In this document: one piece after another, positions 2,696 to 34,400 of the stretch | Numbering within the stretch: the stretch's first letter is position 1 | Layout of the letters: every line of letters starts with the position of its first letter | DNA from: Brachionus manjavacas | Lineage: Eukaryota > Rotifera > Eurotatoria > Ploima > Brachionidae | Assembly (NCBI GenBank): GCA_019054805.1 | Contig: JAHQIY010000004.1 | Span: 8,068,501 to 8,132,500, forward strand | DNA: 64,000 nt | Direction of reading: 5' to 3' | Made by a program: the position numbers and the translations under genes | The notes under the pieces: model-generated | Databases searched by the model: none | Told to the model about the DNA's origin: nothing | The model's input: only the letters and a program-made list of their open reading frames with translations

Positions 2696-2926
2696 AATCA
2701 AAAAAAACTTCAAAATCTTATTTTATACTTTAAAAAACTCAAATAATTTAGCATTTGGTATATTTTGTTAACCAAGAGATGGCGCATTTTAACTTTTCTG
2801 AAACCCACGTTGAAATAATTTTGAAATATTTGAAATTTTAAGTTAAAAAAAAAACATATTTAATTGACGTGCATATAGAAAACTAAGTAAAAAATTTAGG
2901 AGACAAAAATTTTTAGGTAAAATAGA

Positions 2927-4224
2927 ATGAGTGTTGAAGGGGTTGAACAAGCAGTTCAAAATCTTAAGGTGGAGGAAAACAGTGCCGAAGAGCAAGAAGA
3001 CTTTGTTGATCCATGGAATGTGACTTCTTCATCGGAAACGGGCATCAACTATGAAAAATTAATAGTCAAATTTGGCTCATCAAAAATTGACCAAGATATC
3101 ATAAGTCGAATGGAGTCAATCATAAATCAGCCAGTTCATTTTTTTGTAAGACGCGGTATTTTCTTTTCGCATCGCGATATGCACACCATTTTGACTCTGT
3201 ATGAGCAAAAAAAGCCTTTTTTCTTGTACACAGGTCGCGGTCCGTCCTCGGAAGCCATGCATTTAGGACATTTGATTCCGTTTGTGTTTACCAAGTGGTT
3301 GCAAGATGTTTTCAATGTTCCATTGGTAATTCAAATGACAGATGATGAGAAGTTTTTATGGAAAGACTTGACACTTGAAGAAGCGAATCGCTTGGCTTAC
3401 GAAAATGCCAAAGACATAATTGCTTGTGGTTTTGACCCGGAAAAGACTTTTTTATTTAACAACTTGGATTTCATGGGTCAGTGTCCTAGTTTTTACAAAA
3501 ATATTTGTCGAGTGCAGAAATGTGTTAATGTCAACCAGGTTAAGAACATTTTTGGATTTACTGATGCGGATTGTATTGGAAAGATTGGTTTTCCGGCGAT
3601 TCAAGCTGCACCTAGTTTTAGTTCATCATTTCCGTTCATATTCAGTGACCGGAAGGACATACCCTGCTTGATTCCTTGTGCCATTGATCAAGTAAAATTT
3701 AATGCATTAATGATTTGAGATAAGTTTGAATATTTGAATCTAAGGACCCGTATTTTAGGATGACTAGAGATGTGGCACCAAGACTAGGCTTTCAAAAACC
3801 GGCTCTAATTCACTCGGTATTTTTCCCGGCTTTGCAAGGTGCCAAATCAAAAATGAGTGCTTCAGATGCCAACTCCTCCATTTTCTTGACTGATACGCCC
3901 AAGCAAATTAAGGATAAAATTAACAAGTACGCTTTCAGTGGAGGTGGTCAAACTGTCGAGGAACATAGGGCTAAAGGAGGAAATTGTGACGTCGATGTTT
4001 CTTTCCAGTATTTGAAGTTTTTCATGGACAATGATGAGCGTCTGGAAGAAATTAGAAGGACCTATTCAAGTGGTGAATTGTTGACCGGTTTTTTGAAAAA
4101 AGAATTGATAGAAGTATTACAAAAATTAGTTGCTGACCACCAGCAAAAACGCAGCCTAGTTACTGATGAAGTCGTTAGGCAATTTATGCAACCCAGAAAA
4201 TTAAAATTCGCGTTTTCTTCTTAA
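2927..4224 (+). CDS. WARS1: Cytoplasmic tryptophanyl-tRNA synthetase, two exons
   Basis: This gene encodes tryptophan-tRNA ligase, a class Ic synthetase that charges tRNA-Trp with tryptophan for cytosolic translation. Exon 1 is 2927-3691 and exon 2 is 3745-4224; the 53-bp intron runs from GTAAAA to an AAG acceptor. Splicing in phase 0 joins IPCAIDQ to [13 protein letters not shown], as in the eukaryotic family, and gives 414 residues. Visible motifs are the HIGH-type HLGHLIPF with its preceding GRGPSSEAM, the family block [19 protein letters not shown], and the KMSKS-type KMSAS. The C-terminus FMQPRKLKF is typical. The protein starts with about 30 acidic residues and lacks the WHEP domain found at the N-terminus of the vertebrate enzyme. 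The start is the first ATG in the frame. No neighbouring gene appears co-regulated. Confidence 0.96.
3692..3744 (+). other. Minimal intron of the tryptophanyl-tRNA synthetase gene
   Basis: The intron begins GTAAAATTT after GATCAA and ends ATCTAAG before GACCCG. It is 53 bp long, AT-rich and contains an in-frame stop. Three introns of the talin gene in this window have the same size (52 or 53 bp). Confidence 0.92.
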
Positions 4225-30895: not shown

Positions 30896-31468
30896 TTAAC
30901 TCTTGTTATTCGTTGTGTTGGTCTCATGTGTATTGTTAGTAGTTACAGACGGAGGGTAGGGTGTCGAACTATTCGAATTCGAAGAAGGAGATTGTTCATC
31001 TCGGTGATATCTTGCTTTTTTTACAGCACTATAAGCTGCATGAGCCGCTCTGAGCTCCCTTTCTTTTCTTAAAATCTCTTCTCGAAGCATAATCTCTTGT
31101 GCCATGGAGCCAACAAATTTACTATTTAATTGAATTAGCTGATCTTCCTCTGTTGTGTCAACAGTTTGCTGGGCTGCTCTAACCAAAGCGTCCGTAGCTC
31201 TTTTAATTGCATTGCCGGCATGCTGAAGCCTTTTCATGGCTTGAGAGCTCATGTCCGATTTTACTTTACAAGCAACAAGAAGCGCTGCGGTTGAACTCGC
31301 TACTTGCTTTGCAGAAGAAATCAATCTCTCCTCAGTTCCATGCCCTTGAACTAAACCATTTGCTGCTTCACATAATGTATGACAAGCTGCTGCAACCATG
31401 CGCGCTGCTGATATCAATCCTTGGGACCATTGGCCATCATCGTCGCTTGAATTATTTATCGGTTTGAA
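30896..31468 (-). CDS. TLN: Talin exon 13: I/LWEQ actin-binding core, dimerisation helix and tail
   Basis: It reads FKPINNSSDDDGQWSQGLIS, LISSAKQVASSTAALLVACK, VKSDMSSQAMKRLQHAGNAI and KRATDALVRAAQ. The basic residues of the F-actin binding surface are kept. The dimerisation coiled coil follows (MLREEILRKERELRAAHAAY), with the LRKEREL motif. About 35 further residues rich in Ser, Thr, Asn and Pro (from DEQSPSSNSNSST) end in NNKS. Vertebrate talin stops soon after the helix, so this tail is an addition. The stop codon is TAA. Confidence 0.95.
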   Translation of the reverse strand, partial: FKPINNSSDDDGQWSQGLISAARMVAAACHTLCEAANGLVQGHGTEERLISSAKQVASSTAALLVACKVKSDMSSQAMKRLQHAGNAIKRATDALVRAAQQTVDTTEEDQLIQLNSKFVGSMAQEIMLREEILRKERELRAAHAAYSAVKKARYHRDEQSPSSNSNSSTPYPPSVTTNNTHETNTTNNKS

Positions 31469-34400
31469 CTTAAGATTATTAAAAATTAATTGGGAGCTAT
31501 GTAGATTTAAAGAGAAGAATCTAAGTAAGTTCATGCATTTCTAAAACCAAAGTCAAATTTTTAGTTGTTTCAAAATAAATTAAAGTAAGTTAAGTTTAAA
31601 TTCTTAATCTCAGTGTCAAACCTGTGAATCGTAATCCGAATCGTCGTCAGAATTTTTCTTAAAATATTATTCAATTAATATTTTATATTTTTTATATTTT
31701 TTTATTTTTATATTAAAGGTTATATTGTTATTTAAATAAATGACTAAAAGAAATTTCATGAAAAAGAATTAAATTTCAATTAAAAATTTTCTGTCAATTT
31801 CATAATCATTCCAAAAAAATTATTTTTTTAACACTTAGAAAAATTTGCAACGTGAAGTTTTTAACTTTGAAAATTTTTTTTATTTTTTACTAATTAAATA
31901 ATTTTTTTTTTCTAATTTTAATCTTGAAGTTGTATACAAAATTATCATACTCAATAAATTTTTATCATAATTTTGGAATTAAGAATAAATTTGAAAAATA
32001 TCTGAATAAAAGAAATAGCCAAACAAATAATAGTTTAATTTAATATCCAAGTCTTCAAAAACTATGCAAATTTGTGCAGCAAAAAGATTCGTATAAAAGA
32101 TTTAAGTCGATAGTTAAAATCTTTTTACAGAGTTTTTGAAGACTTTGATATTAAATTAAAAGATCAAACTCAAAACAAATCTTTTTTAGAAGGTTAATTT
32201 TAAAATAATCTCTTGTTAAATTTAAAAAATTTTTGTTTTTCTTTTAAATTTTAAATGGAAAAAAATTAAATAAAGTCTATTAGAACTTTCTTAAATTATT
32301 CAGATTTAATTTGTTCCACTGTTCAAAAATTTGAAAGAATAATTTATTTATAAATTTCAAAATTTTAAAGAAAAATCCAAATTAGCATGAAAAACATTGG
32401 TATAAAACTTCAAAGTGCCTCTCTTATCTTATTTAAATTAAATAAGGTAAGGTAAACCTAAATTCTTTGAAAAATAAAAAAATTGGTTTTGTGAAGTTCA
32501 GTACAAAATAAAAGTGAAGTTCAGAGAAAATGAATTACCAGTCGATAATGAAATTGACAATTTGAATTTTTTGATAATTTTAGACATTAAATTACCTTTC
32601 CTTGGGTTACCAATTCTTTTTGTGCAGTAGTTGCTGCTTTGATTAGAACACCAGCGGCGTTTGTTACTGATTTAGCGGCCTCCAAAATTTGCTCATCAAA
32701 ATTCAAATTTTCTGAAACTGCCTTTAAAAAAGAAAAAATTGGCTTATTAAAATAAATTTTTCGAATTTAAAAAAAATCATCAATTGAATTCAACCGGTAT
32801 GTTAGTCTAAAACCAATACTATTCAGATAGGTTCGATATTCGGTTGAGTGGTTTAATGCCAAAAAACAGTTTAATATACAACCAAATATCCAACATATCA
32901 AACAGTAATTTGGCAAAAATTCCATTAACCATCATGCTAAATTAATAAAACTAAAAGGTTAAAACTAAATCTAAATTTTATGTATTATTTTTTAGAAAGG
33001 AAAATTTAATTTTTACTTGTTCTTGTTCACGTGGTTTTAAATTGGAAATTTTTTTTGCCGCCGACTCAATGGCAATGGCTGCGCTCAAAAGCTCATTTTC
33101 AGCAATTACAGTTGGATCTTCGGGATCAGTCCAATCTGAGCCTTTTAGACACTCGGCCAACTGAAGTATTTCCGAAACAGAATTGGCAACATTTTTACTA
33201 TAACCTATTAAATTTTGCTTAAAATCACTTCCTGTAGCTTTGCTGAAAATCTTCAAAGCAAATTTTAAGAAATAAATTTATTTTTCTTTTATCTAATCAT
33301 ACTGCTTGAATACATTCGAGAAGTTCTTTGTATTGACTCGAACATGTAATGCCAACATTAAGCACCTCTTGTTGACAGTCTAGCAGATCTTTGTCTGATG
33401 TAGTGGTGTTAACAGCGAATGCACGGCAAACAAAAAGCAAATCCGAAACTGCTTTCCTGCCTAAATTCGCAGCCTGAATTATATCCTCTTGTCTTTGTGA
33501 ATTAGCTGCGCCGACAGATTTCGACGTGGCCATAGTAATTTGTTTAGTAGCTTTGATCAGGTCTTCTGGACTTATGGACTGATTTTCATTTGATTTTTGT
33601 CTTGTGTCCTCTTCTGAATGAAGATAAGCGGAATAAATCTTAATCTCTTGATTGATTGCTTCAATTGCTGATTCTAATGCACGGGTTCCGCGCTGAGCTT
33701 CGTCTTCCACAGTTTTGACTGTTTTCAAGAGCGATTGAACACTTGTGATCATGTTTTTGGCCGATTCGCTCAACAACGATGCCGAGTGGGTCAAATTGAT
33801 ACTTTGTCTAGTCGGTGTGTTATTTGAGGATACAAGTTTGATGGTGCTTATGAGGTTGCTTAATGCTGTTGAGACGTCCTTTACCGAATTTATAAGAAGA
33901 ACCTGGGCATCTGGTTGATCGGATCCGAGAGATGCTGCACCCAATTTCACAGTGTCGGACAATTTAAACAGAGTTTTGACACTCTTTTGAACGCATTGAC
34001 TCAATTCTTCCTGATCAATGCAAGTAGTGCCTGATGCACTAACCAATGATTTGGTATCCTCAACCAACATTTTAGCTGAGCGAAGTATCAGCTCTCTATG
34101 ATTGCTTAAAGAGTCTGATTCAGTTTCAGATTTTAGTGTTCCAGCAGTTGCGAACATGATAACTGTGTTTAAATCAGCTAATACTCCGTTTAATGCATTA
34201 CCGGCACTGATGCATGCTTGAGTACCTAATAATTATAATTATTTAATAAATAAAAAAAATTTTAGTTGAAATTTTAAAATTTCAATTATTCTATTTTATT
34301 AAACCAATTTTTCTAAAAAATTTTATTTTCTAATTTTATTGTAAAATTAAATATTTAAATTTTTGCTTTTCAAACAATTCGCTGAGATTCCAATTTTAGT

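Follow-up and report, generated by a model that had tools for sequence, protein, structure and literature searches.

The talin gene and its R13 hinge exons

The window (the whole stretch of DNA that was analyzed, 64,000 nt in length) lies in a 114-Mb, AT-rich animal genome, and a talin gene spans its minus strand from ~50380 to 30899. The gene belongs to the I/LWEQ group: its terminal exon was matched by the PF01608 profile at 146.2 bits, helix 1 and the core align to talin-1, and in comparisons of the terminal exon with the PDB talin-1 chains were matched with E values down to 1.3e-47. A search of the genome with PF01608 gave one match at talin plus two fragments from a single other locus (on contig C1), which is presumably a Hip1/Sla2-type gene, and the gene in the window is the sole talin-like I/LWEQ gene found in the genome by this search. 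The features at the 3' end of the gene, in the order of transcription, are the following:

32596..32721, minus strand: talin coding exon with R13 helix 1 (the upstream helix), AVSENLNFDEQ...KELVTQGK, 42 codons, ending in phase 0; aligns to human talin-1 DESLNFEEQ...ELVAQGK
31658..32595, minus strand: upstream intron, 938 nt, 17.9% GC, parts of which match dispersed repeats
31622..31657, minus strand: candidate cassette micro-exon, 36 nt, KNSDDDSDYDSQ, net charge -4, splice plus codon score 15.06
31469..31621, minus strand: downstream intron, 153 nt, 23.5% GC, with neither AATAAA nor ATTAAA
31561..31565, minus strand: weak candidate QKI site ACTAA, not distinctive (20 in talin introns)
31532..31537, minus strand: candidate Rbfox site TGCATG, 84 bases past the micro-exon donor
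30899..31468, minus strand: terminal coding exon with the loop remainder FKPINNSSDDDGQ, the I/LWEQ core, the dimerisation helix and a low-complexity tail, then the stop; matched by PF01608 and talin-1 PDB chains

On the minus strand the candidate reads ...aatattttaag/AAAAATTCTGACGACGATTCGGATTACGATTCACAG/gtttgacac..., with slashes at the exon borders, and the exon (31657-31622) translates as KNSDDDSDYDSQ. The helix 1 exon has the acceptor tttttaaag/GCA and the donor AAG/GTAATT (GGAAAG/gtaatt), the latter with a score of 4.46, and the terminal exon starts at 31468 with tcttaag/TTCAAA (acceptor score 3.06). The preliminary description had placed here 12 open codons within AG and GT, in phase 0 on both sides, and direct reading showed it to be exact in coordinates and translation. 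Its characterization of the insert as strongly acidic was borne out by the net charge of -4 over 12 residues; its characterization of the host intron as AT-only was too strong, given the 17.9% and 23.5% GC of the flanking introns.

Several further observations were made in the window and the genome. The segment at 30899-31010 (minus strand), past the dimerisation helix, encodes a low-complexity tail of Ser, Asn, Thr and Pro, and the aligned talin-1 chain match ends before it. At 44300-44180 (minus strand), the intron upstream of a rod exon holds an incomplete and seemingly decayed copy of the beginning of that exon (SFSSHHADYVTQK versus SSFSHHADYETEK); none of 1000 plain shuffles aligned as well, and the copy is possibly a relic of exon duplication. 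On one contig of the genome, a talin-intron repeat was matched three times with equal scores and at a constant spacing of exactly 11,646 bases (G000 C22:1065215, 1076861 and 1088507), which points to a long unit arrayed in tandem. A search with a spliced-leader sequence of rotifers had 0 hits. Elsewhere in the window, a tryptophan/tyrosine tRNA synthetase gene lies at 2921-4221 on the plus strand, with PF00579 on its first exon and an intron near 3692-3744.

Scoring of the 36-nt segment as an exon

In order to score the candidate, splice-site models were built from 10 talin introns, which had been positioned by eye under the guidance of protein homology, and were combined with a codon model. 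The scores should be read in the light of their sources: 10 introns underlie the splice model, codons taken mostly from the same talin gene underlie the codon model, and a human talin sequence guided the placing of the introns, its R13 part being confirmed by the alignment of PDB chains. The 10 homology-guided introns replaced two automatic sets. The first of these (264 kb, 139 introns accepted) consisted largely of false introns called within coding stretches in the wrong frames; under that mixed model the micro-exon acceptor equaled or exceeded only 2% of the accepted sites and the donor 62%, and the model was judged invalid and discarded because a GT-AG consensus above chance level was absent from the accepted set. 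A stricter automatic version yielded 20 introns of mixed quality.

The micro-exon scored 2.65 for its acceptor, 5.34 for its donor and 7.08 nats for its codons, giving a total of 15.06. Both splice sites fall inside the leave-one-out ranges of the 10 real introns (donors 3.1 to 7.9, acceptors 0.1 to 8.6). Within the 1127-nt stretch from 32596 to 31468, five segments of 9 to 150 nt qualified as open and frame-neutral candidates; the micro-exon was the best of them and the second scored -3.62. The acceptor is without a pyrimidine run and ends in AAG, an ending shared by 5 of the 10 talin acceptors and so ordinary for this gene. The use of AAG rather than TAG or CAG at so many acceptors appears unusual for an animal.

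The reading in which there is no exon, only a chance AG and GT pair flanking an open and fairly GC-rich piece of intron, draws on three of the comparisons that were made. The splice signals alone were less decisive than the total, since, of the 3580 AG..GT pairs in the other talin introns, 8 scored higher at both sites and 51 had a higher sum. The GC content alone was likewise not distinctive, as the exon has 14 G+C and at least 14 were found in 290 of the 10079 36-mers of those introns. In 400,000 strand-bases of other genome DNA, coding sequence included, three phase-0 candidates of no more than 45 nt scored as well (344 at 9-150 nt), from which an upper bound of ~0.01 per intron of such length was derived. 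Against this reading, none of 768 candidates in the other talin introns (the 7 of the 10 with sufficient length; 20,416 strand-bases, both strands, three phases) reached 15.06, and among 1000 second-order Markov introns simulated at equal length only one reached the total and none equaled all three components. Moreover, the host intron is the very one that divides helix 1 from the actin-binding core. A chance pair is therefore considered quite unlikely, and with high confidence we judge the 36 nt at 31657-31622 to be a real exon.

Another reading takes the acceptor as used and the donor as unused, so that the segment would be an alternative last exon and talin would end ...QGK KNSDDDSDYDSQ V stop, without the actin-binding core and the dimerisation helix. 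Reading through the donor does lead to a stop after one codon, but the donor is a good one (5.34) and neither AATAAA nor ATTAAA is found in the 153 nt that follow, and we regard this outcome as extremely improbable.

No second copy of the micro-exon was found in the genome with up to 3 mismatches allowed. One pattern scan each of a collection of genome contigs (45 matches) and a collection of viral contigs (5 matches) gave no relative. An origin by duplication of the first part of the terminal exon was considered, as NSDDD-like codons are common to both, and was rejected when 200 of 2000 shuffles of the exon, and 252 of 2000 with its flanks, scored as high.

Position of the insert within R13

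When the skipped form of the protein was aligned with human talin-1 (9az6), at 214.3 bits, helix 1, the loop and the following part of the core matched up gap-free, with QGK-FKPINNSSDDDGQWSQ over the human QGK-VGAIPANALDDGQWSQ at the hinge. The included form needed a gap in the same loop and scored 198.0 bits. It follows that the insert falls between helices 1 and 2 of R13, and the gap-free alignment of the skipped form upholds the earlier placement of the site between the upstream helix and the I/LWEQ (THATCH) core. When the micro-exon is skipped the helix 1-2 loop has 13 residues and a charge of -2, as does that of human talin-1, whereas inclusion gives 25 residues and a charge of -6.

A further phase-0 acceptor, tttggttttag/AAA at 31541/31540 (minus strand), lies 72 nt before the terminal exon and directly before the TGCATG, and its use would add 24 mostly hydrophobic residues. 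It was rejected as the normal site based on its score (-2.52, versus 3.06 at 31468) and on the alignment to talin-1, which it split in two (196.4 versus 214.3 bits); it may still be used as a rare acceptor.

Possible optional inclusion and a candidate Rbfox site

Since all junctions are in phase 0, the reading frame is kept on both inclusion and skipping of the micro-exon. A frame-neutral length (3n, phase 0 on both sides) combined with usable splice sites, whose scores lie inside the range of the 10 talin introns, is consistent with a cassette microexon. By size, the assignment depends on the author, as the limits in use run from 27 to 51 nt: 36 nt is within the limit of 51 nt applied in PMC12064062 and beyond the 30 nt of PMC8042270.

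Alternative splicing of the micro-exon is plausible from these features. The sites of the micro-exon are similar in score to those next to them (donor 5.34 versus 4.46 upstream; acceptor 2.65 versus 3.06 downstream). According to PMC8042270, 283 of 411 internal Drosophila microexons of up to 30 nt are alternative, compared with 9.8% of longer exons, and the alternative ones have splice sites about equal in strength to those of their neighbors. By our site scores, the micro-exon matches the pattern of alternative rather than constitutive Drosophila microexons, although at 36 nt it exceeds the 30-nt limit of that paper.

The downstream intron contains TGCATG, the DNA form of the Rbfox motif (U)GCAUG, and it is the only one on the sense strand in 11,556 bases of talin introns. 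The probability that a 153-nt intron holds one or more is 0.006, a value to be read knowing that the motif was picked after the fact among several. An Rbfox-like protein is also indicated in the genome by an RRM encoded in two neighboring exons on contig C3, with 74% and 71% identity to the RBFOX RRM. Pfam searches of the genome for Fox-1_C and SRRM_C gave no match, and the controls likewise gave none. An Rbfox-type factor acting at the TGCATG would probably promote inclusion, in the manner of other animals' exons in muscle or nerve. The nearest parallel is the RBFOX-regulated 33-nt microexon of vertebrate Snap23, also a tiny frame-neutral exon with UGCAUG and ACUAA in its downstream intron, where downstream RBFOX sites promote inclusion through RBFOX2 (PMC12064062). 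That case is vertebrate and was tested by deletion and blocking, whereas the talin micro-exon has the motif only.

The principal alternative to optional use is that the exon is real but constitutive, such that all talin of this lineage has a longer acidic R13 loop and there is no isoform switch. The equality of its splice sites with those of the neighboring exons speaks for a constitutive exon, and the downstream FKPINNSSDDDG is itself acidic, so that a longer acidic loop may be the form of this lineage. What counts against a constitutive exon is that the human loop length is kept without a gap by the skipped product alone, that a TGCATG lies downstream, and that frame-neutral exons of 36 nt are often alternative (as reported in PMC8042270 for exons of up to 30 nt). 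We consider constitutive use a possibility to be held tentatively. Given that the exon is real, we judge its optional use to be moderately probable.

Comparison with known splice variants

The best analogue of the micro-exon is metavinculin, whose five-helix actin-binding tail has a 68-residue splice insert likewise placed ahead of helix 2 (PMC7827843). The talin insert occupies the corresponding position by alignment, and the comparison is one of how the two may work. As to kind they differ: metavinculin belongs to the vinculin family and its insert replaces helix 1, whereas the gene here is a talin and its insert, at 12 residues, would be too short and too charged for such a replacement. In addition, the muscle splicing of metavinculin has been demonstrated, whereas the talin micro-exon is known from genomic sequence. 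The micro-exon is thus an analogue of metavinculin and not a member of its family. PMC7827843 gives similar F-actin affinities for the metavinculin and vinculin tails (0.6 and 0.5 uM) and a difference in bundling, which implies that a talin insert at such a place need not alter affinity.

Within the talins, a parallel comes from the invertebrate Ciona, where the I/LWEQ module of one talin gene differs between splice forms (PMC1702346). Talin-a and Talin-b arise there from an alternative exon 49 and differ four-fold in Kd (0.76 and 0.19 uM) and also in targeting. Ciona exchanges the last 78 residues, encoded by the last coding exon, whereas the micro-exon is a short insert at the opposite end of that module. 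Human TLN1 exon 17b resembles the micro-exon in being a small in-frame talin cassette exon between helical units; it has 51 nt, encodes 17 residues between R1 and R2, and lowers the opening force (PMC9997659). It differs in lying at the opposite end of the rod, outside the actin-binding domain, and in being supported by RNA. For Drosophila talin (rhea), PMC8742874 describes one tested alternative splice event. No report of a splice insert in the talin helix 1-2 loop was found among the papers listed from the open-licence literature searched.

Proposed consequences for actin binding

The limiting role of helix 1 in F-actin binding by vertebrate talin, invoked in the preliminary description, is stated in two reviews: R13 helix 1 limits F-actin binding (PMC6927945; PMC10198623), and in R13 without helix 1 actin binding is strongly raised, release of the helix under load being the proposed catch-bond step (PMC10198623). 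We propose that skipping of the micro-exon would give the standard R13 hinge, with a loop as long as the human one, and that inclusion would give the 25-residue loop of charge -6. Helix 1 must exit the five-helix bundle for strong F-actin binding, so a longer, acidic and probably disordered hinge would most likely destabilize its docking or slow its return, and either change would shift the force threshold at which the catch bond forms. As the direction of the effect, we prefer easier release or slower return because human TLN1 exon 17b lowers the opening force of R1-R2. The opposite direction, in which the acidic loop repels actin, is also possible. Actin is itself acidic. The insert may act on actin binding in either direction. 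It also contains two S-x-x-D motifs, in NSDDD and DSDYD, a type of sequence recognized by casein kinase 2, and these could add charge to the insert and so could make its effect adjustable.

Taken together, our joint reading is of a genuine, probably alternatively included talin exon that lengthens an acidic hinge and alters helix 1 docking or its force threshold, with inclusion promoted by Rbfox; as a whole we hold this reading to be evenly poised. A bolder version, which we offer as speculation and think unlikely to hold in full, is that an Rbfox-switched hinge micro-exon gives one talin gene two force-grades of actin catch bond, and is a counterpart of metavinculin reached independently with 12 acidic residues.

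R13 helix 1 partly sets the grip of talin on actin before and after force, and a natural 12-residue insert at its hinge would be a ready-made experiment on the contribution of that hinge. If the reading is true, it would be a third splicing route to talins of differing mechanics, besides the exchanged last exon of Ciona and human exon 17b, and if the micro-exon is optional, the animal could make two grades of a cell-anchoring protein from one gene.
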